Shown here in pieces: positions 12,532 through 62,430 of a stretch of 64,000 nucleotides of DNA. Position 1 is the stretch's first letter, and each line of letters starts with the position of its first letter. The translations under genes were made by a program, and so were the position numbers. Origin of the DNA: Paracoccus methylovorus (GTDB taxonomy: Bacteria > Pseudomonadota > Alphaproteobacteria > Rhodobacterales > Rhodobacteraceae); NCBI RefSeq assembly GCF_016919705.1, contig NZ_CP070371.1, forward strand, positions 339,501-403,500. The letters run 5' to 3'. The notes under the pieces are model-generated. The model was given only the letters and a program-made list of their open reading frames with translations. It had not been told where the DNA came from and did not search any database.

Positions 12532-14175
12532 TTATATATTGTCAGGCGAAATCTCGATGAACCTTAGCGCCACATTGTACTGCATTGCACGCAAGTCACT
12601 GGCTTCGTCTCGCAATGAAATCTTGCTAAAGAAGGGAATGTTAAAGTCGCCATTCCTTCTAGGAGCGTCTGCGATCCAGAACTCGACTGTCCAACCCTCA
12701 CCTGGATTACCCATCTGCTTCTCCAGTAGATTGGCCTCAAAGTCGTGTCCAGCTTCGCGCACTAGCTCAATGAGCCGATGCCAGGTCGCTGGAACCTTGC
12801 GAAATTGTTGCCCGGAGTTTGATCCTTGCTTGAAGAAGTGGCTGAGAATATTTGAGCGGCGGGAGTTTTTCTTAACGTGGATGAAGCGCCTATTCGCGAC
12901 ATCCAGTAGATCACAAGGCTCAAAGCCCGACCTAACCACATTGGGAATTACTATCTCGGACTTATCTAGAAGCACCAATCCTAGGTCTTGGGCAATGCGC
13001 GCATTGTAGTCAGCCTCTGTTTCAATGCGACCATTCCTATCTGCATCGTATATCTTTCTGATTGGATTCGGCTTTGGAATGTCCCATCTCCTGACGAGAT
13101 CCGCAAAGCCATTCTCAATTGATATCCGAAATGTATCGTCTACTCTATACCATCGACCATCGTTGATCGCGTATCTTTCACCGTTTCTGGAAACGGATCC
13201 CAGCAAAGCTTTCTTCAGCGGCCAAATCATAGGGGGGCGGTCATCATCAAATTCTGTGATAATCTTATGGTCTACAAGAGTTCGAGCCGTGATATCATTA
13301 ATACTATCACCCATCGCCTCTACATAATGCCTGAGAAGTAGGTCGGGGTAGGACCGTCGCAGGCCTGGCCCCGAAAACCTGAAACTTACTCCCTCGGCCT
13401 CAGAGTTCGCTGGGAGACCAAGCTCAAACCGGTCTTCGTCTGCCATTATGCTTGCAACTGCTATATCGAAAAGCTCATTCTTCAGAGGTCCGTCTGTTAC
13501 AGGTCTAACAGAGTCAATAATACGAAATGCCGTGTTTTGATATGCTGTGGAGAAAAATAAGCTTACAATATCTCCGGACATCGCAACCACGTCATCAATA
13601 GTGAAGTCACCGGTAATCTTGAGAGAGCGGGCCCCTGTAACGGTATCCAGCCCACTATCATCTTGAGCTGCGCCGCTCAGTTTCTTTACCAGGTCCAGCG
13701 CATCATCCATTCCAAACGAATTGAAATCTCTTTGAAATGGAGATTGTGAAACTCCCTGAAGAGCATCGCCGAGATTGGAGCGCTCCAAGCGCTTCAATTT
13801 CTCTGGATCAAGAGAATTGATCGCGACTAGTAGCCCAAAATCCGACTCGAACATGCTTTCATTCAGCAGCATCCATCCGTGCGAGTAAGAAATGACGAGC
13901 ACACATTGCCCTACGTGGACAAACAATAATGCTGCAACGGATCGTCGGGTTACGAGTTGGAGTTCGGGTATTCTTTGCGCCAAGCGCCTCATCCAAGGAG
14001 GCGGCACAGAACTACCACGGAAGACATGCAGAACCGCGAGCTCTCCGAGATCGTCGACAACAACCACTTGGTGGCCATCAGTTCCAATATGAAGCCTGGC
14101 ATTCTCGGTCAGGTACGCCTCGAAATCTGTGCGTGCCTCCTTTGCCAGAAAGATCGTATATGAGTACCGTGGCAT
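12532..14175 (-). CDS. DUF6119 / TIGR04141 family sporadically distributed protein
   Basis: This 547-residue protein matches the TIGR04141 family: N-terminal YSYTIFLAKEA, the central GFADLVRRWDIPKPN-like region and the C-terminal segment NVALRFIEI. The family is patchily distributed, often in genomic islands near restriction systems; a defence role has been suspected but I know of no proven mechanism. The gene is clearly more AT-rich than its neighbours, a sign of recent transfer. It lies alone downstream of hsdR, separated by 220 bp, with the same orientation. Confidence 0.75.
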   Translation of the reverse strand: MPRYSYTIFLAKEARTDFEAYLTENARLHIGTDGHQVVVVDDLGELAVLHVFRGSSVPPPWMRRLAQRIPELQLVTRRSVAALLFVHVGQCVLVISYSHGWMLLNESMFESDFGLLVAINSLDPEKLKRLERSNLGDALQGVSQSPFQRDFNSFGMDDALDLVKKLSGAAQDDSGLDTVTGARSLKITGDFTIDDVVAMSGDIVSLFFSTAYQNTAFRIIDSVRPVTDGPLKNELFDIAVASIMADEDRFELGLPANSEAEGVSFRFSGPGLRRSYPDLLLRHYVEAMGDSINDITARTLVDHKIITEFDDDRPPMIWPLKKALLGSVSRNGERYAINDGRWYRVDDTFRISIENGFADLVRRWDIPKPNPIRKIYDADRNGRIETEADYNARIAQDLGLVLLDKSEIVIPNVVRSGFEPCDLLDVANRRFIHVKKNSRRSNILSHFFKQGSNSGQQFRKVPATWHRLIELVREAGHDFEANLLEKQMGNPGEGWTVEFWIADAPRRNGDFNIPFFSKISLRDEASDLRAMQYNVALRFIEISPDNI

Positions 14176-14397: not shown

Positions 14398-17523
<3,126 letters not shown>

Positions 17524-17650
17524 CGACTGGCAACCTCCGGCTTGGGCGGTCTGGTGGGCTTGTCGATCACTTTTGTACCGCAAGACAGTTTGTGGGTCAG
17601 TTTGTCCGTTATTTCGACCCGCAAACCAGTTTGACGCGAACAAGTGATCC

Positions 17651-18769
17651 TCAAAACGCGTCCCGCCCTTCGCAGATGTTCAGCAACTCCGGGAAGGCCA
17701 GCACGGCGGGCCGCCTGCCGCCGGACGCGCGGATTTCGCGCAACAGCCCATTGTCGCGCACCAGCCGCAGGATGCGCTTGGCGGTCGGACCGGGAATATC
17801 CGCCTGCGCCACGAAATCCGAGGCGACAAAAATCGGGCGACTGAAGAACCAGTCCAGCGCCCGCACCCCGTATTGCGAGCGGGTGGCCGCGACCATCCAG
17901 TCCTTGCGTGCGCTGTAGAGCGCGTGGATCGCCTGCGCCTTCCTCTGGTTGGTGCCTGCCTGTTCAATGATCGCGCGCAGGAAGAACCCGCACCAGCCGG
18001 TCCAGTCGCCATCGCGCGAGACCGCCAGCAGCCGGTCGTAATATTCGTCCCGGTGGCTTTCCAGATATTCCGACAGATAGAAATTCGGTGCCGACAGCAG
18101 GCCCTTGGACTTAAGGAACAGCGGGATGATCAGCCGCCCCAGCCGTCCGTTGCCGTCCAGAAACGGGTGGATCGCCTCGAACTCGGCATGGAGCACGGCA
18201 AGCTGGATCAGCGCATCGGGGGCCGGGTCGTGGATATAGCGTTCCCACGCATCCATCGCGGCGGGCAGGGCCTCGGCCGAACAGGGGACAAAACGCGCCT
18301 GTTCAATGGTGCAGCCTTCGGGGCCGATCCAGTTCGGAATGCGGCGATATTCGCCCGGATCTTTGTTGCGGCCGCGCACGCCCTGCATCAGGCGTTCATG
18401 GGTCAGCCGGATCAGGCGCTGCGACAGCGGCAGGGTTTCCAGCAGGCGCGATGCCTCGGCCAGCGCCGCGCGATAGTTCAGCACCTCGTGGATATCGGCC
18501 TTTTTCGGCGTGCTTTCATCCCCCGGCTCGCCCTCAGCCTCGAACTCCAGCACCTCGCCGATGGTGGCCTGCGTGCCCTCGATGCGGCTGGACAGCACGG
18601 CTTCCTGCGTGGTCAGCGGCGAGAGCAGCACATTGGGGTTGGGGATACCGTGCAGCACGCCCTCGTATCGGGCGACGGCGGCATTGGCGGGGCCGATCAG
18701 CGGCAGAAGCTGCGGCCAGTCGAGCGCACCGGGCGGGAACCGCCCCTGATGATAGAGAACCGCCATCAC
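17651..18769 (-). CDS. Fic family protein within the type I R-M operon
   Basis: This 372-residue protein carries the Fic core [12 protein letters not shown] at 201-212, complete for AMP transfer (or a related nucleotidyl transfer) to hydroxyl side chains. An N-terminal Fic_N region holds an inhibitory-helix motif SSRIEG at 60-65, which fits the (S/T)xxxE(G/N) pattern of self-inhibited class II Fic proteins. A winged-helix-like C-terminus is likely. Its start overlaps the hsdS stop by 4 nt. Fic genes recur inside type I R-M loci, possibly acting when restriction fails, but its target is unknown. Confidence 0.88.
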
Positions 18770-20019
18770 GCCACCTTGCTGGCGAGGGATTCTGCCTCGG
18801 CCACCCGCAACTCCCCCGACATCAGGCGCGGCAGCAGCAGGTCGCGGGTCTGGGCGAGGGTGCGGGATTCCATTTCGTTATGGATAATACGATCAATCAG
18901 CGGTGCCATCGTTTCGCCCATTCGTGCAACTATATCGTCAGGGGGGCAGATCGTCTTTGCCGCCTTCAAGTGGCCGCGCTGAATATGCCCCATCGTCGTG
19001 GCCTTCGATGCGGCGATGATCTGGAATTCTTCCAGATGGTGCTGAACCCATTCGCTGAAGAACCATGCTGGGTAGCGGTCAGAAGTGACCTTGAACAGAT
19101 GCTGGTTCAGCGCACCTTCTCCTCCGGTCCAGAACTTGGCGAGCAGGCTGCCGGACCACGAAAATAGAAAGTCGCTATCCTGCACCACGTATTGGGGCGG
19201 GACCTTCCGGGAAGCGCGATTGGATTTGGCTGTGATGCCGTTTCGCAGTTCGGCAATCTTGATCACCGGCAGGCTGTCCGCCTCATTTTCGCCGGGAAAT
19301 TTCTGCAAGGCGAGACCATTGAGAAAGTTGGCGATTTCATCCAGCGGTTTTTCCTCCCACCCCTCCGGCTTGCCGTCACTGTCGAGGCGGTCGGGGAAGA
19401 GGGCCCAGAGGTCGGGGGAGAGGTAGGGTTTGCTGCCCTCCATCTTGGCGCGGGTGGGGCCGAAATCCACGAACCAGTCGCGAAACAGCGCCCGCGCCAT
19501 GGATTCCAGCGTGGCGTTCATCCTGCGGTTCAACTCGATCTTGTCATCCAGCACCCCGAGCGTGGCGGCTATGGCTTCGCGCTGTGACGGATTGATGGTT
19601 GGCAACTCGTATTCTGCTATCGACCGCCAAGCGACGCGTTGTCGGCCAGACGTCCCAGACATTTGCTTCTCGGCAAAGCGCCGAAACTCTGGGTCCCTCG
19701 TGATGTAATAAACAAATAAGCCGTCAGCCTGCGATCTTGCACGCATGACAATAAACTCAGTCGAGCCATGGGCTGCTTGACCAGCTTCTAAGGTTGAAAC
19801 ATAGCCGCCTTTGCCGTTCTCTAAGCAAGGCGTAATGCGCGCGAAAAGTGTGTCGCCGTTCTCGAATTTCGAGCCTGAGCCCGAAAACTCGCGCGCTCCT
19901 ATTTCTGGAATATCACGTGCATTGGTTGGTAGCGCTGCCATCTCGATGAATGGCGCACTTTCGCCTTTCCTCAGCCGAACCGAAGGGTTGAACTCGATCA
20001 AGTCGTTCAGCTTAATCAC
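18766..20019 (-). CDS. hsdS: type I R-M specificity subunit S
   Basis: HsdS sets DNA recognition for both methylation and cleavage. The 417-residue product shows the two-repeat plan: target-recognition domain 1 (about 1-140), a conserved helix with AATLGVLDDKIELNRRMN (about 150-168), domain 2 (about 220-360) and a final helix. The GTG start at 20019 follows GGGGGATGTGGC, a good ribosome site. It overlaps a 21-codon frame in the hsdM-hsdS gap, and its stop overlaps fic. The two halves differ, as expected for a bipartite target, which cannot be read from sequence alone. Confidence 0.9.
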   Translation of the reverse strand: MIKLNDLIEFNPSVRLRKGESAPFIEMAALPTNARDIPEIGAREFSGSGSKFENGDTLFARITPCLENGKGGYVSTLEAGQAAHGSTEFIVMRARSQADGLFVYYITRDPEFRRFAEKQMSGTSGRQRVAWRSIAEYELPTINPSQREAIAATLGVLDDKIELNRRMNATLESMARALFRDWFVDFGPTRAKMEGSKPYLSPDLWALFPDRLDSDGKPEGWEEKPLDEIANFLNGLALQKFPGENEADSLPVIKIAELRNGITAKSNRASRKVPPQYVVQDSDFLFSWSGSLLAKFWTGGEGALNQHLFKVTSDRYPAWFFSEWVQHHLEEFQIIAASKATTMGHIQRGHLKAAKTICPPDDIVARMGETMAPLIDRIIHNEMESRTLAQTRDLLLPRLMSGELRVAEAESLASKVA

Positions 20020-26805: not shown

Positions 26806-28053
26806 TTACGCGGCCCTGACGAGGTCAAGGAATCCCCGAACTGACATCAGCCAGTTTTGCTGGTCTGTGTGATATGTGGCGTGAATGCTTTGTGGCAAGA
26901 CGAGCTGCAGCGCCTGCGCCTGCATTTCGCCGGTCTGTGCCCGGGAGATGGACGGTTCGAGCGTTAACAGATGCTTGGCCGTGATGCGTTCTGCCTCTGC
27001 CAGCACCTGTCGCCACCGATCCTTGCAGGTGGTCTTGACTGCCAGCATACGAAGTTTGTCGGTCGGGAAGGTGGGATCTGCATACTCAGCTTCACCTGGA
27101 AACAGGAAATCGGCCGCATTTCTCTTTTCGGTGGTGGCCTCTCGCTTGTATCGGACATTCCATTTGGTCAGCAGCGCCTCGACATGATGCGCAAAAGCAT
27201 AACCGGCGCGGGATTTGCGCCTGTTCTGCACGCTCAGTGAGAAGGACAGAAATCCGTCGACATCTGCCTGTTCCCCGTCCAGAAAGCCTTCCTTGAGCCG
27301 TTCCGCCACGATGATACGCTCCAGATGCCGGAACAGGGCTTCCTCATGCTCCATCCAGGCGACAAGGGCTGCGTCGGGATCGGCCAGCGGGTCGACGCCT
27401 TTAACAGACTTACGCGCAAAAGCCGAGAAGGCAGCAGTGCCGGGAAAAGCCGCACCAAATCGCCCGACGAGCTGGTCAAGCGCATCAGGTTCCGGTTCTT
27501 CAGCCTCAATGCCAAGCTCATCAAGGATAAACTTTGCGGCAAGGTCGATACCGCGACCGCCGTCCTCACCGATATCACGCTGGCTGAGGGCGTAGTCATC
27601 CGTCAGTTGCAACCCGAAGAGCCACAGCAGTTTCTGCTCGGCAGAGCTGCCGGAAGGACACAGGATTGCAAGCACTTTCCGCTCTGAGGTCATACAGAGA
27701 AACAGCGTATCGCCCGCTTGCGCCCGGTGGACGACACTTTCAGCAGCTGCCGGATAGTAAAGACGGTATTCCGGCGCGCGATGTAGTTGCGCCTTGCGGC
27801 TGTTGTACCATGTCCCGGTCAGTTCCAGCCGGAGGGGTGCCTCCTGCTCGTCATCCATCCAGATATAGGTGACCGGGATTCTCTCCCGTTCCGCCGGTGT
27901 TCCGACAAATGCCCGGAACACATCGACGCCCTGGAACTCATGTCCCCGGGATACGGCAGGATCCACCTCTGTGCCGCGCAAGACCTTTGCGCCGGCTCCA
28001 ACGAAATATCCTGAAAGATAACCTTTGCCCGCCACGTCAACCCTGCCCTTCAT
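26806..28053 (-). CDS. EcoRII-type restriction endonuclease
   Basis: The C-terminal half closely matches EcoRII-C (PF09019). NRRKSRAG at 277-284, DFLFPG at 315-320 and LAVKTTCKDRWRQ at 337-349 supply the catalytic Asp and Lys residues of the PD-(D/E)xK centre. The N-terminal part should be the effector-binding EcoRII-N domain. The ATG at 28053 gives 415 residues, close to EcoRII's 404, and overlaps vsr by 17 nt; a longer frame to 28125 is less likely. With the Dcm-like partner the expected target is CCWGG. That target is inference. Confidence 0.85.
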   Translation of the reverse strand: MKGRVDVAGKGYLSGYFVGAGAKVLRGTEVDPAVSRGHEFQGVDVFRAFVGTPAERERIPVTYIWMDDEQEAPLRLELTGTWYNSRKAQLHRAPEYRLYYPAAAESVVHRAQAGDTLFLCMTSERKVLAILCPSGSSAEQKLLWLFGLQLTDDYALSQRDIGEDGGRGIDLAAKFILDELGIEAEEPEPDALDQLVGRFGAAFPGTAAFSAFARKSVKGVDPLADPDAALVAWMEHEEALFRHLERIIVAERLKEGFLDGEQADVDGFLSFSLSVQNRRKSRAGYAFAHHVEALLTKWNVRYKREATTEKRNAADFLFPGEAEYADPTFPTDKLRMLAVKTTCKDRWRQVLAEAERITAKHLLTLEPSISRAQTGEMQAQALQLVLPQSIHATYHTDQQNWLMSVRGFLDLVRAA

Positions 28054-28540
28054 TTCCGGCGGAATCCCGTCCGCGCAGCTCGAGAACCGGATCGTCAGAG
28101 GAGAGCCACAGGCTGACTCTGTCAATCACCTCTTCATCCGGCCACCGCAGCTTTCCCTTCAGCGCGCATTCCCAGATAAGGGACACCCGCCAGCCCGCTG
28201 CCCGCAAGGCGGTAATATTTGCTGTGTCACGGGCAACATTTCCGGCGATCTTCCGGCGCCAGAACTCTTCCCGGGTTGCTGGCCAGCGAAACAGATAGCA
28301 GTCATGTCCATGCCAGAAGCAGCCGTTGACCAGCAGGACGGCCCGGTATTTCGGCAATACCAGATCCGGACGACCGGGCAGCGTCTTCTCGTGCAGCCGA
28401 AACCGGAAGCCACGCGCATGCAGGCCCTTCCGCAGCAGCATTTCGGGCTTCGTGTTGGTCCCGCGGATCGCCGCCATATTACGGCTGCGGGTGGCACTGT
28501 TGTGGACGTCAGCCAACTTTTCGCGCGCGCAATCCGGCAT
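28037..28540 (-). CDS. vsr: Vsr very-short-patch repair endonuclease
   Basis: Vsr nicks next to T in T:G mismatches left by deamination of 5-methylcytosine. The 167-residue product carries the family core: NMAAIRGTNTKPEM at 21-34, catalytic Asp59 in GRPDLVLP and FWHGHDCYLF at 75-84 with the zinc/catalytic histidines. It overlaps the dcm-like gene by 32 nt, the same overlapping arrangement as dcm-vsr in Escherichia coli. It repairs the mutational cost of its neighbour's methylation. Confidence 0.92.
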   Translation of the reverse strand: MPDCAREKLADVHNSATRSRNMAAIRGTNTKPEMLLRKGLHARGFRFRLHEKTLPGRPDLVLPKYRAVLLVNGCFWHGHDCYLFRWPATREEFWRRKIAGNVARDTANITALRAAGWRVSLIWECALKGKLRWPDEEVIDRVSLWLSSDDPVLELRGRDSAGNEGQG

Positions 28541-29738
28541 CGGACATGACGGTCAGGACATGTGGCAGCATGATCTTTGCGACTTCCGCGAAAACCGGAA
28601 CAGCGACCGAATTGCCAAACTGTTTGTATGCCTGCGTGTCGGAGACCGGGATGCGGAAGCTGTCATCGTAACCCATCAGGCGGGCGCATTCCCGTGGCGT
28701 CAGCCGACGTGGGTTTTCTCCCGTGCCCCTGCTGACGAGGATCTCCGAGCCGTCCTTATAATAGCGCGCCGAAAGCGTGCGGGCGATGTCATCCGGGCCG
28801 ACCAGACCGAATCCAAAGCCATTTCCCCTGGCGCGGTGCTTGGCCGCGTAGTCCTGCAGGTATTGCCAGAGCTTGTCGGTGAGCGTGTATTTCGCGCTGA
28901 CTTCTGCGTCGGGTCCGATGGTAAAATGCCCCTCCGGCGCCTCCGTTCCATCTTCCGGGTGGAGAATCGAGCGCAGGCGTCTGGCACCGTAGGCCGGCAG
29001 ATGCAGATCATCGAAGCTGAAGGGGACCGGATCACGAAAGCCGACGATGACGATCCGTTCGCGATGCTGCGGAACAAAGTGGCCCGCATCGATGATCCGC
29101 GTGTGGATCGAGTAGCCCAGCTCTTCCTCCAGCTTCCTCCGGATCACGCTGAACGTCCGCCCCTTGTCGTGGCTCCGCAGGTTCTTCACGTTCTCCAGCA
29201 GGAAGGCTGCCGGGCGGTGATGCTTCAGGATACGCAGGACGTCGAAGAACAGCGTGCCCTGGGTTTCATCCTGAAACCCATGCAACCGTCCGAGCGCGTT
29301 CTTCTTTGAGACACCAGCGATCGAGAAGGGCTGGCAGGGAAAGCCCGCGACCAGAACATCGTGATCGGGCACATCTGCGGCCCCGACCTCGCGGATGTCG
29401 CCGGCGATGGGCCGGTTGTCCGGATAGTTCGCCAGATAGGTTTTCTGAGCATAACCGTCCCATTCGGAGGTGAACACGCAACGCCCTCCCGCACTTTCCA
29501 TTGCGTGCCGCAGCCCGCCGATACCGGCAAAGAGGTCGATGAAGGTAAAAGCGGCGTCCTTTGCCGGACGGGCATGGCTTTCCGCCTCCGTCTGCAGAAC
29601 CCGGATCACCGCCTCGCGCGGGGTTTCCTCGCCTCGTTTCCAGCGATAGATATGGCCTTCGGAGTAGCCCAGCTTTTTCGATGCTTCGGCAACCGACCAC
29701 CCTGCCCGCTGCAGGAGGCTGTCGAAATCTGTCTGCAT
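28509..29738 (-). CDS. dcm: Dcm-like cytosine-C5 methyltransferase
   Basis: The ATG at 29738, 4 nt after a GGAGAG site, gives 409 residues. A small HTH-like N-terminus (WSVAEASKKLGYSEGHIYRW) precedes motif I DLFAGIGG at 68-75, the catalytic PCQ at 134-136 and ENV at 182-184. The recognition region and tail (GNGFGFGLV, TLSARYYKDGSEILV, RRLTPRECARLMGY, QAYKQFGNSV) strongly resemble E. coli Dcm. CCWGG specificity is therefore likely. It is first in a dcm-vsr-R cassette. The HTH could let it control its own gene, as M.EcoRII does. Confidence 0.92.
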   Translation of the reverse strand: MQTDFDSLLQRAGWSVAEASKKLGYSEGHIYRWKRGEETPREAVIRVLQTEAESHARPAKDAAFTFIDLFAGIGGLRHAMESAGGRCVFTSEWDGYAQKTYLANYPDNRPIAGDIREVGAADVPDHDVLVAGFPCQPFSIAGVSKKNALGRLHGFQDETQGTLFFDVLRILKHHRPAAFLLENVKNLRSHDKGRTFSVIRRKLEEELGYSIHTRIIDAGHFVPQHRERIVIVGFRDPVPFSFDDLHLPAYGARRLRSILHPEDGTEAPEGHFTIGPDAEVSAKYTLTDKLWQYLQDYAAKHRARGNGFGFGLVGPDDIARTLSARYYKDGSEILVSRGTGENPRRLTPRECARLMGYDDSFRIPVSDTQAYKQFGNSVAVPVFAEVAKIMLPHVLTVMSDAGLRARKVG

Positions 29739-29928
29739 TCTGCTCTCCACTGTCCGCACGCCATCGGGGAATTTTTTTGACACTATGTCTGCATGTCGCC
29801 CCTCCTGCAAGAACATAGTGGAAACCTGATGAAGTATTCCGCTTGTGCCCTTGCGCCCCCCTCGCCGTTGCCGATGATATGGCACGAATTTCTGGGCAAG
29901 CGCAGGCTGCCGTCGGTGAGTCAGGGCT

Positions 29929-46070: not shown

Positions 46071-47081
46071 TTAGGGACCACCAGCAGCAGTGACCCACCA
46101 CTGAACAGCGCTTGCCGTTAAGCTGCCGACGATACCAAGTGCCAGCGCAACCAAGACATAAACGCCAATGATTATCAAACTGGTCTTTCTCGTCTGTAGT
46201 TTCACAAATGCTGAAAAGCCTTGTAGCGAATTCTGCGCTTTGCCTTCGAACTGTTTTCGCCAGTGATAGACTACCATTCCGTCTTCTAAGCCGTGGGGGA
46301 CATAGTCCTTCCAGATCTGGGTCTCGAGCAAACGGCTTTTATGCCACTCGGCATGGGATGATGTGATAGACGATGTCACTGGGACCACGGCCAAGAATAC
46401 GATACGTGAAACATCGGCGAGACCATATGGAGCAGCATCTGCTGCTGCTTCAATTGCTGTCGGAAGTGTGCGTGCCTCATTTAGGCGACAATCGATATAC
46501 TCAATTTCCTCAAAGCCGCTGGCCCAAGCTCTGTCTTTTGGTCTGATCGCGGTCACAAATGGTCGCGTATCGTGCTTGGGCGGCAGTAGACGCAGGCGGA
46601 AATAGCCACATTCTGGACTGCCGTTGCATTGTCTCGCAAGTGATTCCAATGCCATCGACGTAATCGAGATTAAAGTTCCTCCCTCTTTCTCCTTGACGTC
46701 GAGTTCACTGGGGTCGATCGAGCCGTTTTCGGGCGAGAAGAGATGGACGTGGCAATAGGTGTTGGTGCCGATTCTCAGCTCTACCGATTTGCCGCTCGGC
46801 TTTTTTGTTGATGATAGGGTTTCGTTGAAAATACCTTGAGCGAGTTCAGTCGATGCAAACTCTGGTCCAAGGTCTACAATATTTTCACGTCGCAATGGGA
46901 AAGGAACAAAAATTCGGATCGCCGACAACGCCGACGGATCGCTCGGCATCACTCCGATCTCTACGAAGTCTCGGCGCTTCGTGCCTGAAAAGTGCCAGAG
47001 GTTGACATGAAACTCCGTCCGGACGTCAACGTCGGCGGCTGAACGTTCGCACCAGAATGCGATGGATTTGTTGTCAGACAT
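46071..47081 (-). CDS. unknown protein with C-terminal membrane anchor (gene 4 of operon)
   Basis: The 336-residue protein has a large soluble N-terminal region rich in beta strands (FHVNLWHFSGTKRRDFVEIGV, VELRIGTNTYCHVHLF) and a single C-terminal membrane helix at about 301-325 (LIIIGVYVLVALALGIVG), so it is tail-anchored. No family is recognised. Its start overlaps the ATPase gene by 8 nt, so it is the last gene of the four-gene operon. Its membrane anchor would suit an effector or a sensor, by inference only. Low GC matches the rest of the operon. Confidence 0.7.
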   Translation of the reverse strand: MSDNKSIAFWCERSAADVDVRTEFHVNLWHFSGTKRRDFVEIGVMPSDPSALSAIRIFVPFPLRRENIVDLGPEFASTELAQGIFNETLSSTKKPSGKSVELRIGTNTYCHVHLFSPENGSIDPSELDVKEKEGGTLISITSMALESLARQCNGSPECGYFRLRLLPPKHDTRPFVTAIRPKDRAWASGFEEIEYIDCRLNEARTLPTAIEAAADAAPYGLADVSRIVFLAVVPVTSSITSSHAEWHKSRLLETQIWKDYVPHGLEDGMVVYHWRKQFEGKAQNSLQGFSAFVKLQTRKTSLIIIGVYVLVALALGIVGSLTASAVQWWVTAAGGP

Positions 47082-47643
47082 CGGGTTCGGCCTCTTGCAC
47101 AGTGCTTAGCACTCGGGCTAGCGCTTCTTCATCGCCGCCGTCTACAAAATGAATGGGTATGCTCAAGTTATCTGCAATTTCGCGCGCGACTGTAATTGCA
47201 ATCTTTTGTTGCTTGGCTAGAGAATCGACACTCCGCTCGGGCCGTACGCGACTCGCATCGCGTTCACGGTTGCGATGGATGTTTTGCGGTTTATCCTCGA
47301 TAAAGATCACGAAGTCAGGATTGATCTCGCGAAAAACATCTGAGCCGATATGAACCAACCCATCAGGGGTATCAATGACAACATGTGCATCCAGAATAAT
47401 GAGGGTCTTACCAGGATCAATGTATCGGTTGAACGCTTCGAGCAGAGCCGCCTGGTTGTTGTCAATGTCAAGAGCGCGAAGGTGGTCCTGAGACGTTACT
47501 TGTCCGTCCGTTCGTGCGAGTGAGTCTCGGATCAGTGTGCTTGCAGAGAGAATTTGCATTGGGACGGCCGCGCCTACTCTCTCGAGCAACCACGTCTTCC
47601 CAACACCGGAAATGCCAGCAACAATGCCCACTCTACGCGTCAA
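47074..47643 (-). CDS. P-loop kinase-like/AAA ATPase (gene 3 of operon)
   Basis: The 189-residue protein has Walker A AGISGVGKT at 9-17. TLIILDAHVVID is probably the Walker B region. FVIFIEDKPQNIHRNRERDASR resembles the lid arginines of adenylate-kinase-like NTPases. Size and order fit the P-loop nucleoside-kinase/AAA_18 group. A small stand-alone NTPase encoded between a PIN-GNAT protein and a membrane protein suggests a nucleotide-sensing or modifying role. It overlaps its neighbours by 4 and 8 nt. Substrate unknown. Confidence 0.75.
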   Translation of the reverse strand: MTRRVGIVAGISGVGKTWLLERVGAAVPMQILSASTLIRDSLARTDGQVTSQDHLRALDIDNNQAALLEAFNRYIDPGKTLIILDAHVVIDTPDGLVHIGSDVFREINPDFVIFIEDKPQNIHRNRERDASRVRPERSVDSLAKQQKIAITVAREIADNLSIPIHFVDGGDEEALARVLSTVQEAEPDV

Positions 47644-49181
47644 AGCGGGAACCCAAAGTTGCAGCGATCCAAGGCTTTGCGAAGTCGTCCGCCCTTTAGC
47701 TCGATGATGGATTGTGGCGGGTGCCCGGCAAAAATCCCTGTATCCTGCAACTCGTCCAGCAAGATCGGCGGATCGATGTAATCGACGAGTAGGTAATTGA
47801 TGACTTTGACTGGATCATCGACTGTAGCTTGATAGTCCTCCAGTTCTTTTTCGCTGTAAACAGAGCGTCCGCCAGTCAGCTTCATAAGGTCTTTGGTAGA
47901 CGTTGCGAGTGAGACATCGTCAAGAATACCAACCGCCGTCAATGCTTGGGACGGGTTCTCGATCGATTTGCCTTTGTAAAAGAACAGGACTGACCCCGGC
48001 GGGCCAAGGTTTGATGGCGCGCGGCAGAGGTAGACCTTTCGAATGGTGTTGCCTGGCCGTTTTGGACCGGAGCCGTGACCGGTGTCTCGAAACATGTCCG
48101 GCTGACGCGCGTCGCGGAGATCTGGATAAAGAACGTCATGGTAGTCTTCTTTGATTGGGATGACAAAACCACGTACGCCCGCATCGGCAACGAAACGCGG
48201 ATAGCTTCTTCGGTCTGTTTCGTAGACCGAGGTCCCATCAATGCGGGTCAGTTGTGTATTCGAGAACGAGCGCTCGAGAACAAGTTCACCATCCGAACCC
48301 TTGGTTCCAGTCTTCTCGAACCCATAGAACTCTAGCAGCGCGATCAGAGCATCTTGATCTGGGTAGGCCGTCAAATATGCCAAATCATAATCGTTCTTTT
48401 GCGCGAACCATAGTACCTTCTTGAGCAGCAGCTCGCCCAGTTTAATACCCCGTTTTTCTGGACTTACCTTGAAGGTGCAAATTTTCAAGATCTTTTGAGC
48501 TTTGTGCGTTGCGTCGGTATTAGCTCCAGTTTCGTCCTTACGAACAATCAGACCGGCAATCTCATCGTTGTCGTATACGACCCAGCAGGGGCGCCGTTCC
48601 GCTACACATTTGGTTTTCCACCACTCATTGAACTCAGGATATCCCTCACGAAGACTATCGAAAAAACTGTCGGTAATCGGTATCGTGTGGGCAGAAACAT
48701 CCGCCACATGCCGAATAGGTACGGCGCGCGGTTCGTAAGTTGTTGTGAGGAGTTGAGCCGCGTCGGCGATGAACAACACGCGGTTTGCGAGGTCCGGTGC
48801 GTGTTTCTGCGCCCGTTCGTGTAGCCCCTGATCCTCTGTGACAAGAAAGTCTGAGGCGTTAATCGAGAGCGCGTGCAGCAGGGTGGCATCGACCTCATCA
48901 TTGTGTTTTCGTATCCTGCCGAATGCCTGCTGAAGGTCGTCTTTGGTGACGCCCTTAACCTTTTCGAGGATCTGAAACTTGTCGACCTTGCTCAGCGAAA
49001 TGGTGCGGCGCGCAACATCCTTATCGCGATTGATATCATCGCGCGCGGCTTCGTGAACTAGAACATCAACCTTGTGCTTTGCCGCCAGTTGAGAAAACTT
49101 AGCGTATGCAGGTTTGACGGTGTGATTGTCTTCGAGGCCGATGATGATGTTCGTATCAATGAGATACGACTGAGTGCTCAT
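47640..49181 (-). CDS. PIN-GNAT-ASCH-like multidomain protein (gene 2 of operon)
   Basis: The 513-residue product joins several domains. Residues 1-140 are a PIN nuclease (Asp9 in LIDTNIII, Glu44 in VHEAARDD, Asp98 in EVDATLLHAL, Asp117 in VTEDQG). Residues about 165-305 are a GNAT acetyltransferase (RGIKLG at 244-249 and LLEFYGFEKTG). A PUA/ASCH-like domain follows at about 380-500 (PGSVLFFYKGK, QALTAVGILDD). A PIN RNase tied to an acetyltransferase is unusual. It overlaps the XRE-ASCH gene by 26 nt and the ATPase by 4 nt. It resembles a fused toxin-antitoxin protein. Confidence 0.8.
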   Translation of the reverse strand: MSTQSYLIDTNIIIGLEDNHTVKPAYAKFSQLAAKHKVDVLVHEAARDDINRDKDVARRTISLSKVDKFQILEKVKGVTKDDLQQAFGRIRKHNDEVDATLLHALSINASDFLVTEDQGLHERAQKHAPDLANRVLFIADAAQLLTTTYEPRAVPIRHVADVSAHTIPITDSFFDSLREGYPEFNEWWKTKCVAERRPCWVVYDNDEIAGLIVRKDETGANTDATHKAQKILKICTFKVSPEKRGIKLGELLLKKVLWFAQKNDYDLAYLTAYPDQDALIALLEFYGFEKTGTKGSDGELVLERSFSNTQLTRIDGTSVYETDRRSYPRFVADAGVRGFVIPIKEDYHDVLYPDLRDARQPDMFRDTGHGSGPKRPGNTIRKVYLCRAPSNLGPPGSVLFFYKGKSIENPSQALTAVGILDDVSLATSTKDLMKLTGGRSVYSEKELEDYQATVDDPVKVINYLLVDYIDPPILLDELQDTGIFAGHPPQSIIELKGGRLRKALDRCNFGFPL

Positions 49182-49950
49182 CTTTCAGGGCCTTTCTAAG
49201 ATCGCGTTTCGCATACAAAAATGACTGGGGCGGCTCAAAGCCAAATCGTTCTCTTAGGTCGGTAAGCTCTACAGGTGTTTCGAACGGTCGGGCATTTGAG
49301 AATTCCAGAGCAAAGCCCTCGTCAAGACCTTCAAAGTAGCGGTCGAATTCCGGTCGCTCGATAAATGCGACATCCGCGTAACGTCGCCAAATTTCTTCAA
49401 TGGCCAACTTCTTGACAGACGAAATCTCTGCTACGCCGACCATCGCGCGTTCCGGGGATGTCGAGTAAATGTAGGCGATCGTGCCCTTAGGTGCCGACGC
49501 TGGGAACCTGCGCCGAAGCTCAACAGTCTTCTCACCCGACATGATCCGGCTGCTAAATTGCGGCCGAATACTAAGCACAATATCCCTGTGAGGTCGAAAT
49601 GGCTCTTCCGTAAAAATCGGGAGTACAAGTTGGTCTTCATGGTCGAGTTCAACGTCAAACGCTTCGCGCACTTGGAGACACAACGAGCTACTAGCATCAA
49701 AGGCCGCGCTAACTTGAAGTGTTCCGCCAAGCGCTTCCACGTACTTTTGGACTGTGGAGAGCTGCATGTCAGCGCGCCCCTTTTCGAACTTTGATACGGA
49801 TGCCTGTCCAACATTGAGCAGTTCGGCCATTTCTGCTTGCGTCAGCCCAGAGAGTCTTCGAATCTCTTTGAGTGCTTCACCTATCTTCGGGGATTGCTCA
49901 TCCAAGCTTGATGCCCGAACCTCTACGACCTTGCCATGTAACTTGCCCAT
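49156..49950 (-). CDS. XRE-ASCH protein (gene 1 of operon)
   Basis: The ATG at 49950 is placed 8 nt after AGAGGGG; a GTG at 49959 lies too close to that site. The 264-residue product has an N-terminal HTH (24-76: EIRRLSGLTQAEMAELLNVG) and a C-terminal ASCH domain (about 124-240) with its GEKTVELRRRF core (139-149). ASCH domains bind RNA or modified bases. The HTH probably controls the operon. The same ASCH-type fold recurs in gene 2, which suggests one ligand for both. It is first in the operon. Confidence 0.82.
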   Translation of the reverse strand: MGKLHGKVVEVRASSLDEQSPKIGEALKEIRRLSGLTQAEMAELLNVGQASVSKFEKGRADMQLSTVQKYVEALGGTLQVSAAFDASSSLCLQVREAFDVELDHEDQLVLPIFTEEPFRPHRDIVLSIRPQFSSRIMSGEKTVELRRRFPASAPKGTIAYIYSTSPERAMVGVAEISSVKKLAIEEIWRRYADVAFIERPEFDRYFEGLDEGFALEFSNARPFETPVELTDLRERFGFEPPQSFLYAKRDLRKALKDEHSVVSH

Positions 49951-49998
49951 ACTGCTCACCCCTCTTTTCCTTCAGCTTGTAGTAGCAATGAGTATGCC

Positions 49999-50028
49999 TT
50001 ACAAGGAATATCTGAGAAGCGGTGTCAA
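49999..50028 (-). promoter_or_regulatory. possible promoter of the four-gene operon
   Basis: On the minus strand TTGACA (50028-50023) matches the -35 consensus perfectly; a weak TTGTAA-type -10 sits 18 bp downstream. It lies about 50 bp ahead of the first ATG (49950). Only the -35 match is convincing. Confidence 0.35.
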
Positions 50029-50229
50029 GATGTTGTGGAAACCTGCACTGGTGTCAGCACTCCTAGTCGGGGAGTGCACATCTTGGATCCATCATGCAAC
50101 GGTCGGTCGCATTAAGCTAACCATTCATTTGACAGCCATCTGCATTGCCCTGGCTGCTCAATGTCTGCGATGACAGACCGCGCTGCGGCACTCGAGAGCC
50201 TCATTGGAAGGCAGCAAAGGGCCGTCTTT

Positions 50230-50335
50230 TCATCCCTCCGCCAACACGGCTTTTGCATACCGCCCCGGCGGTTGGCCAGTGTGGCGGCTGAAAGCTGTGC
50301 TGAAGGTGCTCGCCGAGCCATAGCCGAGGCCACCG
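50230..50335 (-). pseudogene. C-terminal fragment of an AraC-family regulator
   Basis: On the minus strand LGYGSASTFSTAFSRHTG followed by QPPGRYAKAV is the typical second HTH of AraC-type regulators, closing with a stop at 50230-50232. The rest of the gene is absent because the sequence changes abruptly at about 50335 into a plus-strand thioredoxin-reductase end. It cannot be expressed as a functional protein. Confidence 0.65.
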
Positions 50336-50520
50336 GCTGCGAGATGATCGAGACGCTGACGGGCCGCCAGATCGTGACGGATGAGACGAAGGAAACCAGC
50401 CTTCCCGGCATCTTCGCCTGCGGCGATGTCGCGCGGGCGCCGCATTCGGTGTCACTGGCGGTGGGGGACGGGGCATGGGCCGGGGCGCAACTGCACCGCT
50501 CGCTGGTCTGGCCGGAATGA
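50330..50520 (+). pseudogene. C-terminal fragment of a thioredoxin reductase-like flavoprotein
   Basis: From about 50330 the plus strand reads TGCEMIETLTGRQIVTDETK then SLPGIFACGDVARAPHSVSL and GDGAWAGAQLHRSLVW. This is the FAD-binding C-terminal end of thioredoxin-reductase-like proteins (GxFACGD). The N-terminal two thirds and the redox CxxC are missing. The stop overlaps the methyltransferase start by 4 nt, so the original gene pair was an operon and the deletion removed its upstream part. Confidence 0.7.
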
Positions 50521-51198: not shown

Positions 51199-52386
51199 TC
51201 ATGCTGCGGCAATTTCATCACCGTCCTCGGTGACCGGTTGCGCCAGTGCCTGCGCCACAGCGTCGGAGACGGCGTCCGCCGCCGAGCGGACCGGATCGGT
51301 CTTGAGATGCGCATAACGCGCCGTGGTCTGAACCTGCGTATGGCCGAGGAGCCGCCCGATCATCGTCAGGTCCTGCCCGAGCTGCAGCGCATCCGAGGCG
51401 AAGGAATGGCGTAGATCATGGATACGAAGATCGTCCAGCCCGGCGCGCTTGCGCAACCGCCGCCACGGCTTCTGCATGTCGGTCAGATGCTGACCCTCCA
51501 TCCGGCCGGTGATGACATAGGGGTTTCCGTCGATCTTCGGGATGGTTTTCAGGACCTTGATGGCCGCCTTGCCGATCGGGACCAGCTTGGCGCCGGTCTT
51601 GGAATCCGGCAGGCGGAGAAGGCCGTTGCGGTAATCGACATAGCGCCATTTCAGGGTCTGAATCTCGCTGAGGCGGCATCCGGTCAGCAGCAGGAGGCGG
51701 ATGCAGAAGGCGGCCTCGGGTTCGTCTTTCGCCTCATTCAGCACCTTGCCGAGGCGTGCCAACTCGTCCGGGGTGAGATAGCGCTCGCGCTTTTCCTCCC
51801 GGTATCGCTTCACCTTCCAGCAGGGGTTCACTCCGTCGGTGCGCACGCCCCAGGTATGGGCCACGGTGAACATCACCGAGAGGACGCCGAGGGTCCGGTT
51901 CGCCTGATAGGGGATATGCTTCATGGACTGGTGCAGTCCGACGACGTCGGCCCGGGTGATGTCGATGATGCGATGACTGCCGAACCTCGGATTGATGAAC
52001 AGATCGATGGATCGCTCGTACTCGCCATAAGTCGAGGCTTTGCAATGCAGCGCGACGTGATCCGAAAGGAAGCGTTTGCTGAACTCTTTGATGGTCGGGG
52101 AGGCCTTTCGGCGGTCGCGCTCACCGGCGGGATCGGCGCCGAGCCGCACATCCGACAGATATTTCATTGCCTCGGTGCGGGCCATTTCCGGCGTCATCGC
52201 ACCATGCAGCCCGATGTTGACACGGCGCGAACGGCCGCCGGCGCGGTACTGGGCCAGATACATCTTTCGCCCCGATGGATAGACGCGCAATCCGAAGCCT
52301 TTCAGCTCTTCGTCCCAGAGGAAGAACTCCTGCCCGGTTGGCACCGCCGCGTCGACGGAACGTTTCGTGATTTTTGTCATCTTCAC
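51199..52386 (-). CDS. int: tyrosine recombinase/integrase
   Basis: The 395-residue product has an N-terminal DUF4102-type arm-binding domain (1-90), a SAM-like core-binding domain and a C-terminal catalytic domain. The catalytic set is complete: Arg238 in GCRLSE, Lys263 in DSKTG, His323/Arg326 in HDLRHS, His349 in GHTQ and Tyr358 in ARYAH. It lies 183 bp from a tRNA-fMet 3' fragment, its probable attachment site. Which of the elements in the window it moves is uncertain; it stands at the right-hand end of the composite region. Confidence 0.9.
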   Translation of the reverse strand: MKMTKITKRSVDAAVPTGQEFFLWDEELKGFGLRVYPSGRKMYLAQYRAGGRSRRVNIGLHGAMTPEMARTEAMKYLSDVRLGADPAGERDRRKASPTIKEFSKRFLSDHVALHCKASTYGEYERSIDLFINPRFGSHRIIDITRADVVGLHQSMKHIPYQANRTLGVLSVMFTVAHTWGVRTDGVNPCWKVKRYREEKRERYLTPDELARLGKVLNEAKDEPEAAFCIRLLLLTGCRLSEIQTLKWRYVDYRNGLLRLPDSKTGAKLVPIGKAAIKVLKTIPKIDGNPYVITGRMEGQHLTDMQKPWRRLRKRAGLDDLRIHDLRHSFASDALQLGQDLTMIGRLLGHTQVQTTARYAHLKTDPVRSAADAVSDAVAQALAQPVTEDGDEIAAA

Positions 52387-60860: not shown

Positions 60861-61908
60861 ATGACGTCTTACTGGAATGGCCGACAGGCACGGCCCGACA
60901 ACCTCCGGCTGTTGACCCATGAGGGTGCCTGGAAGGCGTGGGCAGATGCTGAAGAACCGATGCCGGCGGATCCAGAGCATCGGCTTCGCGGGTGCCGCTC
61001 CATCGTGACGCAGGCACTTCAGGACGTCTTGCACTCGACTAATGTGATCATCCTGCTCGGCTCAGGCGCATCGTTTTGTGCGCGAAATACGACAGGTCCT
61101 AATGCTCCGGGCATGCGGGATTTATGGGTTGGGGTGCGGGCAGCTTGCGAAGCGCACCGCGCCGGTGAATTCGATGCGGTAGTGAGGGCGCTGGTTGGAA
61201 CGGCACCCGGAGTAGATCCGGACGGCAACCCGAAGACTGGCAACATCGAACGACTGCTCAGCCTGTGCAAAATGCGCCTCGAGCTTCTGTCGGTGAAAGA
61301 GGAAACCTTGAAGAATGCGCGATCGCTGGTGGACGATCCCGGGCCAGAGGAAGCCGCCGCCGTTGCGGAAATGGAAAGTCTCTCAGCGTTCGTGTCGCTG
61401 GCAGAGGAAGCGGTCCTAACCAAGGTCGGCTTCGTGAATGCGACGACGGAGCTTTCGGCGCATACGGAACTTCTTACGAAATTCGGTCGCAGGAGTGCTG
61501 ACAAGCCCCGGGTCAAGATTTTTACGACGAACTACGACTTGTGTATCGAGGAGGCGGCACTCCGGCTCAATGCGGTTCTCGTGGATGGATTTTCGCACAG
61601 CGCGCGGCAGCGATACAATCGAGACAACTTCGATCATGATATCGTCCGCCGGCGCAACGGCACCGCACGCGCAGACTTCGTCGACGGTGTCTTCCAACTC
61701 TACAAACTGCATGGCTCTGTCGACTGGAGACGTGTCGGCGACCACGTCTTCCGCAGTTTGGATATGGATTTTGAGCACGGCGCACCCGTCCTGATCTACC
61801 CCCGGTCTACGAAATATCAGGAGGCGTTCGATAGCCCCTATCTCGATATGTTCGCGGCATTGCAGGCCGGGTTAAGGGAGCCCGATACGACACTGATCAT
61901 CGCGAAGA
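60861..61908 (+). pseudogene. SIR2-family protein, 3' end lost to an IS insertion
   Basis: The product has the NAD-binding SIR2 signature VIILLGSGAS at 62-71, TTNYD at 222-226, KLHGS at 282-286 and LIYPRSTKY, as in defence-type SIR2 proteins that consume NAD+. At about residue 348, after PDTTLII, where the GYGFGDDH-like loop should follow, the frame runs into IS5-type DNA and continues to 62144 as noise. The C-terminal part and any partner gene are absent, so it is probably non-functional. Confidence 0.7.
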
Positions 61909-62430
61909 CCCCGCCCCACCGGACGGCGCTGTTGCGCAAATCAGCCGATGACCGGACTTCCCCTTTCCCCGGGCACACCTATCCTGCAGCCACGGTCATC
62001 GGGATACCGAGTGCTGTGAAGCGGTTGAGGACCGCCGCGCGGATCTGGACCTCTGCCACCTGGCGGTCGAAGTCTCGCGACATCAGCCGCTGGCCGAGCA
62101 GCTTCACGCAGTTCATTTTTGTTTCGACCCTGCTGCGGCGGTGATACCCGCTCCAGTTCCGCCAGAGCGCCCGGCCCAAGCGCTTCGATGCTCGCAGGAT
62201 CTCGTTGCGCGCCCGGGCTCCGGCTGTGTCCGGCTTCCATGGCCTCGCATTCTGTCTCGGCGGTATGATAGCTGCAGCATCGCGGGCGGCGATGGCGTCA
62301 TGGCAGGCACGGGTGTCATAGGCACCGTCGGCGGTGACGGTGGCGATCTCCTCCTCCGCCGGGATCTGGGCAAGCAGGTCCGGCAGCATCGGCGCATCGC
62401 CAACACTGCTGGAGGTGACCTCGACGTAAG
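61906..62430 (-). mobile_element. IS5-family transposase, C-terminal fragment
   Basis: On the minus strand from about 62428 to 61979 the frame reads YVEVTSSSVGDAP, VTADGAYDTRACHDAI, IIPPRQNARPWKP and RSRVETKMNCVKLLGQR. This is the C-terminal part of an IS5-group DDE transposase with its Asp and Glu. The N-terminal part is missing, replaced on the right by an IS66 fragment. GCGCTGTTGCGCAAAT near 61928 could be its terminal inverted repeat. It interrupts the SIR2 gene. Confidence 0.8.

Follow-up and report, generated by a model that had tools for sequence, protein, structure and literature searches.

The four minus-strand genes described here form a real, conserved and mobile operon of a predicted kind that is already known, to which a membrane module is added. 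They lie in a stretch of 64,000 nucleotides from Paracoccus methylovorus, the whole of which is called the window. The operon is read as a mobile member of the (PIN)-GNAT-EVE/ASCH family of toxin-antitoxin or phage-defence systems with an AAA_17 partner and a membrane module, and a probability of about 0.55 is assigned to this reading, including the proposed way of working. Judged from the sequences, the operon is likely to encode a toxin that is aimed at RNA or translation and held in check by XRE-ASCH, serving phage defence or addiction. Architecture, family membership, linkage, an upstream palindrome and predicted folds were established by computation.

Operon layout and genomic setting

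The operon comprises four open reading frames within 46071-49959 (Table 1). Successive genes overlap by 26, 4 and 8 nt, and the 4-nt overlap at the start of gene 3 is also present in Paracoccus. An earlier sequence-only reading had claimed these overlaps, a higher AT content than in the neighbouring DNA and an integrase beside the operon. The coordinates agree with the overlaps, the GC content is 0.51-0.53 across 46-50 kb compared with 0.60 and 0.65 in the flanking kilobases on one side and 0.66 and 0.65 on the other, and a tyrosine integrase was located. Conjugation genes, including one for a conjugation coupling protein, and a replication initiator are found in the window as well. The setting of the operon is mobile and defence-rich.

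Table 1. Coordinates of the operon and adjacent features in the window
Feature	Position	Strand	Description
Gene 4, MEM	46071-47081	-	336 aa; all-beta body and C-terminal membrane helix at about 303-332
Gene 3, AAA_17/adenylate-kinase-like P-loop protein	47074-47643	-	189 aa; TTG start
Gene 2, PIN-GNAT-EVE/ASCH-like fusion	47640-49181	-	513 aa; presumed toxin; PDC-M11A, phrog_10674
Gene 1, XRE-ASCH	49156-49950	-	264 aa from ATG; alternative GTG start at 49959; HTH_3, ASCH, PDC-M11B
Candidate operator	49993-50011	-	Degenerate palindrome ATATTCC-N6-GGCATA upstream of XRE-ASCH
Possible -35 hexamer	50023-50028	-	TTGACA, read by eye
Tyrosine integrase	51199-52386

The order of the four genes is repeated in Paracoccus (L003), Aliiroseovarius (L015), Pelagimonas (L016) and Aureimonas (L017), which indicates that the arrangement is more than chance. 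Recurrence of the set in unrelated islands had been put forward as a test, and it was found in unrelated replicons. Gene 2 shares 96% identity with its homologue in Aliiroseovarius and 93% with the one on a Paracoccus plasmid, consistent with mobility.

Several other genes of the window were identified. A type I restriction R subunit (14398-17643) and a specificity subunit (18766-20019) adjoin another AT-richer patch, which encodes a DUF6119 protein (12532-14175). An EcoRII-type restriction nuclease and an adjoining C5 cytosine methylase occupy 26806-28125 and 28509-29885, and a SIR2-type protein (60861-62144) resembles the PADLOC SIR2 defence models (3.4e-62). Adjoining the upstream end of the operon, 50161-50520 retains no more of a pyridine nucleotide-disulphide oxidoreductase than its C-terminal end (profile positions 243-291 of 291), which is perhaps an insertion scar.

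The gene products

The domains assigned in the sequence-only reading (HTH plus ASCH; PIN plus GNAT plus ASCH-like; P-loop) proved essentially correct by domain models and fold comparison. Gene 2 matches Pfam Acetyltransf_1 (1.5e-07) and, below threshold, PIN_3 (0.0027). Its match to PADLOC PDC-M11A covers residues 6-498 (7.8e-119) and that to phrog_10674 reaches 1e-204; two PHROGs, both of unknown function, match genes 1 and 2 almost from end to end. Structure comparison places a GNAT fold at about 152-308 and an ASCH fold at 336-508. The GNAT domain is most like protein N-terminal acetyltransferases, for example Naa60, Naa50 and RimI, GNAT folds being mutually alike. The GNAT residues are conserved, as are the PIN residues D9, D98 and D117 in all nine PIN rows and E44 in seven of them. 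No PIN structure appeared among the 50 rows of the fold comparison, an absence that is uninformative because the PIN part of the model is of low confidence. A phmmer search with the C-terminal domain returned nothing useful.

Gene 1 probably starts at the ATG at 49950, the start chosen in the sequence-only reading, as the resulting length equals that annotated in Paracoccus sp. AK26. It matches HTH_3 (1.5e-11) and ASCH (7.8e-05) in Pfam, and PADLOC PDC-M11B matches its ASCH part (2.5e-31). The ASCH domain is homologous to the solved ZmASCH of Zymomonas mobilis (PDB 5guq, 2.5e-21). According to the available part of its description, ZmASCH binds nucleic acid and performs Mg-dependent cleavage of ssRNA involving Tyr47, Lys53 and Ser128 (PMC5615036). 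By our own count on the alignment, these residues align with Tyr162, Arg168 and Ser243 of gene 1, so that one of the three differs, and no HTH part is aligned in the solved chain. From this homology, the presumed antitoxin may bind, or even cut, RNA, in which case ASCH could be more than a simple antitoxin and have RNase activity of its own.

Gene 3 matches Pfam AAA_17 (1.6e-20), and its profile matches solved adenylate kinases (1ki9, 2.8e-20). The Walker lysine, Lys16, is conserved in 17 of 17 rows. The protein nevertheless differs from adenylate kinases: its score against the NCBIfam adenylate kinase NF003122 is 74.7 bits over residues 4-173, under the curated cut-off of 155 bits, and it is the quickest-evolving of the four. 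Comparison of the window, L003 and L015 yields dN/dS values of 0.19-0.29 for the P-loop gene and 0.04-0.09 for the other three, based on three pairs because dS against L016 is saturated. Such fast change is what a part that faces a changing partner might show.

MEM, the product of gene 4, matches no family at E values up to 1 in Pfam, NCBIfam, PADLOC or PHROGs. Among 25 MEM homologues there is no Pfam match at E 0.01 and a single PADLOC match (E 0.033). The protein is modelled as a cytosolic all-beta body held by the C-terminal membrane helix. The model is moderately similar to Ost1/ribophorin I and to the N-domains of M1 aminopeptidases, but the Foldseek TM-scores are low, no PDB sequence match exists and the body is predicted to be cytosolic. 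The catalytic HExxH of M1 aminopeptidases is absent from MEM in the 24 homologues checked out of 25. A viral fold library contained no convincing match, and two queries found no MEM in 50,697 phage records. One apparent relative (L014, E 7.3e-4) was rejected, as it lies antisense to a long ORF that by eye reads as a peptidase. MEM thus seems to be an undescribed part of the operon, no description having been found in the literature searched.

Relation to described systems

The (PIN)-GNAT-EVE fusions are the subject of a published survey. In the part of it that was available, they are almost all accompanied by ASCH and often by an AAA_17 ATPase, and are predicted to be toxin-antitoxin systems; XRE is fused to ASCH mostly in alphaproteobacteria, and no module of the family had been characterised as of 2020 (PMC7641849). 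The operon shares with the systems described there and with PDC-M11 the PIN-GNAT-EVE fusion, the XRE-ASCH partner as in alphaproteobacteria and the AAA_17 ATPase. It differs by the extra gene MEM, and most MEM loci add a stand-alone GNAT encoded in a facing operon. The searched text of the survey showed neither MEM nor this facing GNAT; the words 'transmembrane' and 'adenylate kinase' are absent from the main text, where 'membrane' is used five times but never in the toxin-antitoxin section.

The sequence-only reading had proposed a new gene set as a candidate for an undescribed defence or toxin-antitoxin system. The class was right, since the operon belongs to the PDC-M11 and PMC7641849 family, as far as the available text of the latter shows. 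The novelty does not stand for three of the genes: a wholly undescribed operon is ruled out by the PDC-M11 match and the published gene set, and MEM alone seems new. Two features of the (PIN)-GNAT-EVE/ASCH family (PDC-M11), a fusion of PIN-GNAT-EVE or GNAT-EVE type and an adjacent ASCH protein, which in alphaproteobacteria is fused to XRE, are present, and PADLOC lists PDC-M11 as a candidate defence system only. A search for literature on PDC-M11 led nowhere within a coverage of journal articles that includes few subscription papers and no preprints.

Core homologues have been named in a GenBank record of coliphage PhiR47_2 (PV340567), whose depositors call them the toxin GevT and the antitoxin GevA. 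This locus likewise has a GNAT-EVE-like gene followed by an ASCH gene; it differs in having no PIN, XRE, P-loop or MEM gene. No paper on GevT/GevA was found in the same literature. Searches for GNAT-EVE and for GNAT, ASCH and AAA_17 with a membrane protein, again among sources other than preprints, yielded only PMC7641849. The available parts of two other articles mention ASCH and GNAT in other settings (PMC12839542, PMC10853773).

Other toxin families resemble the operon in single domains. The operon shares the GNAT fold with toxins of the TacT/AtaT/ItaT kind; these are paired with ribbon-helix-helix antitoxins, unlike the HTH_3 plus ASCH partner here. VapBC consists of a single-domain PIN toxin with a small antitoxin, whereas the PIN of the operon is one domain of a 513-aa fusion.

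Distribution of the core and of MEM

Loci were labelled with HMMs built here from previously found loci. In sampled genomes, 15 core loci were retained at E 1.7e-16 or better (six at class level and eleven at phylum level, two being common to both). ASCH is present in 13 of them, the P-loop gene in seven and MEM in three. Of the 12 loci without MEM, three are truncated by contig ends; in a fourth the contig stops 0.5 kb beyond the core, and in a fifth only 1.9 kb is present on one side. Further matches at nine class-level and eleven phylum-level places (E 9.7e-6 or weaker) were rejected as relatives of the core, as the alignment is confined to the GNAT part. The best 80 of 99 core loci in viral contigs all contain ASCH, and many of them are near-identical, like L036, L038 and L039 among the other loci. 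The P-loop gene is present in 19 of the 80, PIN in nine and a stand-alone GNAT in three; MEM occurs in 11, once as a fragment. As ASCH is near-constant with GNAT-EVE and the others are patchy, the core consists of ASCH and GNAT-EVE, and the P-loop gene and MEM are accessory. The membrane protein had been proposed to execute the action of the system; its absence from 12 of the 15 core loci in sampled genomes means that the core does not depend on it as an executor.

Seen from MEM, the association is much tighter. Only seven of 72,556 plasmid records contain MEM, and all seven also hold GNAT-EVE or PIN-GNAT-EVE with ASCH; six have the P-loop gene. A pattern scan covering one genome per species found 14 MEM loci, all with the core, ASCH and the P-loop gene, four with PIN and XRE-ASCH and ten without. 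The gene order of the window occurs in three of the 14 (L015-L017). In the other 11, MEM is followed by a stand-alone GNAT, and this pair is convergent with an operon of (PIN-)GNAT-EVE, ASCH and P-loop genes. A MEM profile matched five genomes among 385 and 398 sampled genomes: that of the window, G190, G361, G136 and one false match. The core lies beside MEM in the first three; G136 combines MEM with GNAT, P-loop and ASCH genes but lacks GNAT-EVE. The sole MEM locus found in viral contigs by the MEM query (L029) has GNAT, P-loop and ASCH genes before the contig ends. ASCH accompanies MEM in 14 of 14 genome loci, seven of seven plasmid records and four of four genuine matches in sampled genomes. 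MEM loci range over alpha- and gammaproteobacteria, Campylobacterota and Bacillota.

Two of these loci show further arrangements. In G136 (L030, 8009-13918), the position of GNAT-EVE is occupied by a DUF4011/helicase/MTES_1575 protein of 1970 aa, which has ASCH, P-loop, GNAT and MEM as neighbours. A Rhizobium anhuiense plasmid (L009, 1273-7075) carries tandem sets, with GNAT-EVE, ASCH and MEM followed by XRE-ASCH, PIN-GNAT-EVE and P-loop genes.

In Escherichia coli, 35 of 5,426 genomes have a GNAT-EVE/ASCH match and seven have MEM. In all seven, the coordinates put MEM some tens of nucleotides ahead of that match. The one MEM locus that was inspected belongs to a prophage, P2-like by our own reading, in which cI and the integrase flank a compact set of MEM, GNAT-EVE and ASCH. 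Another E. coli prophage (L117, 2983-3756) has a different protein, of 257 aa, where MEM would stand ahead of GNAT-EVE/ASCH.

Co-inheritance of the genes

Pairwise distances were compared for 28 hand-picked MEM loci, including four of the 11 viral ones and leaving out the PIN-type set of L009. The correlation is 0.95 between MEM and stand-alone GNAT (19 loci), 0.90 between ASCH and GNAT-EVE (28 loci) and 0.54 between MEM and GNAT-EVE (28 loci). Not one of these values was attained in 9,999 permutations; since the loci were hand-picked and host phylogeny is uncorrected, the contrast between the pairs outweighs the permutation counts. The correlations are compatible with a partly separate module of MEM and GNAT. 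Between the window and L015, MEM has a dS of 0.82, compared with 0.38-0.57 for the remaining genes, a hint that the operon might be of mosaic origin.

A putative operator upstream of XRE-ASCH

The candidate operator is the sole match in the window at no more than one mismatch, with 0.02 expected, to a pattern derived from XRE-ASCH loci themselves. In 11 of 13 such loci, ATTCC-N6-GGAAT occurs with at most one mismatch at a distance of 154-162 nt upstream of the HTH anchor, and 0-7 of 500 shuffles per locus equal the match. The pattern was drawn from six loci; five of the other seven fit exactly, three of these being near-identical to one another. The two that do not fit are L121, with two mismatches near a like position and 63 of 500 shuffles as good, and L040, whose best match is elsewhere. 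Any -10 box paired with the possible -35 hexamer would overlap the palindrome, and a standard sigma-70 promoter scan reported nothing in this region. The occurrence of the palindrome upstream of most XRE-ASCH genes suggests autoregulation, such as a type II antitoxin would exert on its operon.

Proposed mode of action and alternative explanations

For the biochemical activities, the assignment of toxin and antitoxin, the signal that sets the system off and the parts played by MEM and the P-loop protein, we infer the following. XRE-ASCH would bind the upstream palindrome and repress the operon, while its ASCH domain would restrain PIN-GNAT-EVE by binding either this protein or the same RNA. Infection or loss of the element would upset the balance, upon which PIN-GNAT-EVE would attack RNA or translation. 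The EVE/ASCH-like domain of gene 2 would read a feature of the RNA and PIN would cut it; GNAT would acetylate an amino group, perhaps on charged tRNA. MEM would keep its cytosolic beta domain at the inner membrane and, together with the adenylate-kinase-like P-loop protein, might dock, sense or tune the core. In favour of this reading stand the PDC-M11 and PHROG matches, the published gene set, the GevT and GevA names, the near-constant pairing of ASCH with GNAT-EVE, the conserved PIN, GNAT and Walker residues, the GNAT and ASCH folds, the homology to ZmASCH, the palindrome, the tight association of MEM with the core and the mobile, defence-rich setting. Against it count the absence of MEM from most core loci, the locus of G136 with its missing GNAT-EVE, the low confidence of the PIN model, the two loci with a poor fit to the palindrome, the negative promoter scan and the chance that ASCH acts as an RNase.

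The core is toxin-antitoxin-like, MEM occurs in seven plasmid records, related loci lie in prophages and the window holds conjugation and replication genes, all of which would suit an operon that is mainly a maintenance module of the mobile element, with incidental effects on phages. This explanation is nonetheless rather doubtful, because four-component loci exceed the needs of a minimal addiction pair and the window is rich in restriction and other defence genes; the survey, in its available part, also places PIN-GNAT-EVE near restriction and other defence systems (PMC7641849). It is improbable that GNAT-EVE instead acetylates a modified base in DNA or RNA, making the operon a nucleic-acid modification or restriction system and not a toxin-antitoxin system. 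Iyer et al., cited in PMC7641849, proposed base acetylation, EVE and ASCH domains are readers of modified bases, and restriction systems are present in the window. Yet PIN is an RNase fold, the GNAT is closest to protein N-terminal acetyltransferases, though GNAT folds are alike, and the homologue ZmASCH acts on ssRNA in the available account (PMC5615036).

MEM and the stand-alone GNAT could also be a separate system that merely shares a locus with the ASCH/GNAT-EVE core. The distances of MEM track those of the stand-alone GNAT far better than those of GNAT-EVE, its dS is higher, MEM and its GNAT are encoded on the strand opposite to the core in 11 of the 14 loci, G136 has MEM without GNAT-EVE, and the core is often without MEM. 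Such independence is unlikely given that MEM is invariably seen with ASCH, that window-type loci carry it in the same operon with an 8-nt overlap, and that the adjacency is kept at 22-41% identity in three phyla. The favoured reading of a (PIN)-GNAT-EVE/ASCH toxin-antitoxin family member with a membrane module has a more specific, tentative extension, which we hold to be possible rather than probable. In a membrane-tethered branch of the toxin family, MEM, with its Ost1/M1-N-domain-like cytosolic body at the inner membrane, and the fast-evolving P-loop protein, joined in most such loci by a second GNAT, would act as infection sensor or second effector. We know of no Ost1/M1-N-domain-like fold in prokaryotic immunity.

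Significance

MEM is a protein family missing from four libraries, and it marks a definable subset of the GNAT-EVE/ASCH loci. If the membrane-tethered branch exists, a toxin-antitoxin core would become a multi-component, membrane-linked defence system. With MEM, the candidate operator, the solved ASCH homologue and the compact E. coli prophage set, the family becomes directly testable in a laboratory strain.
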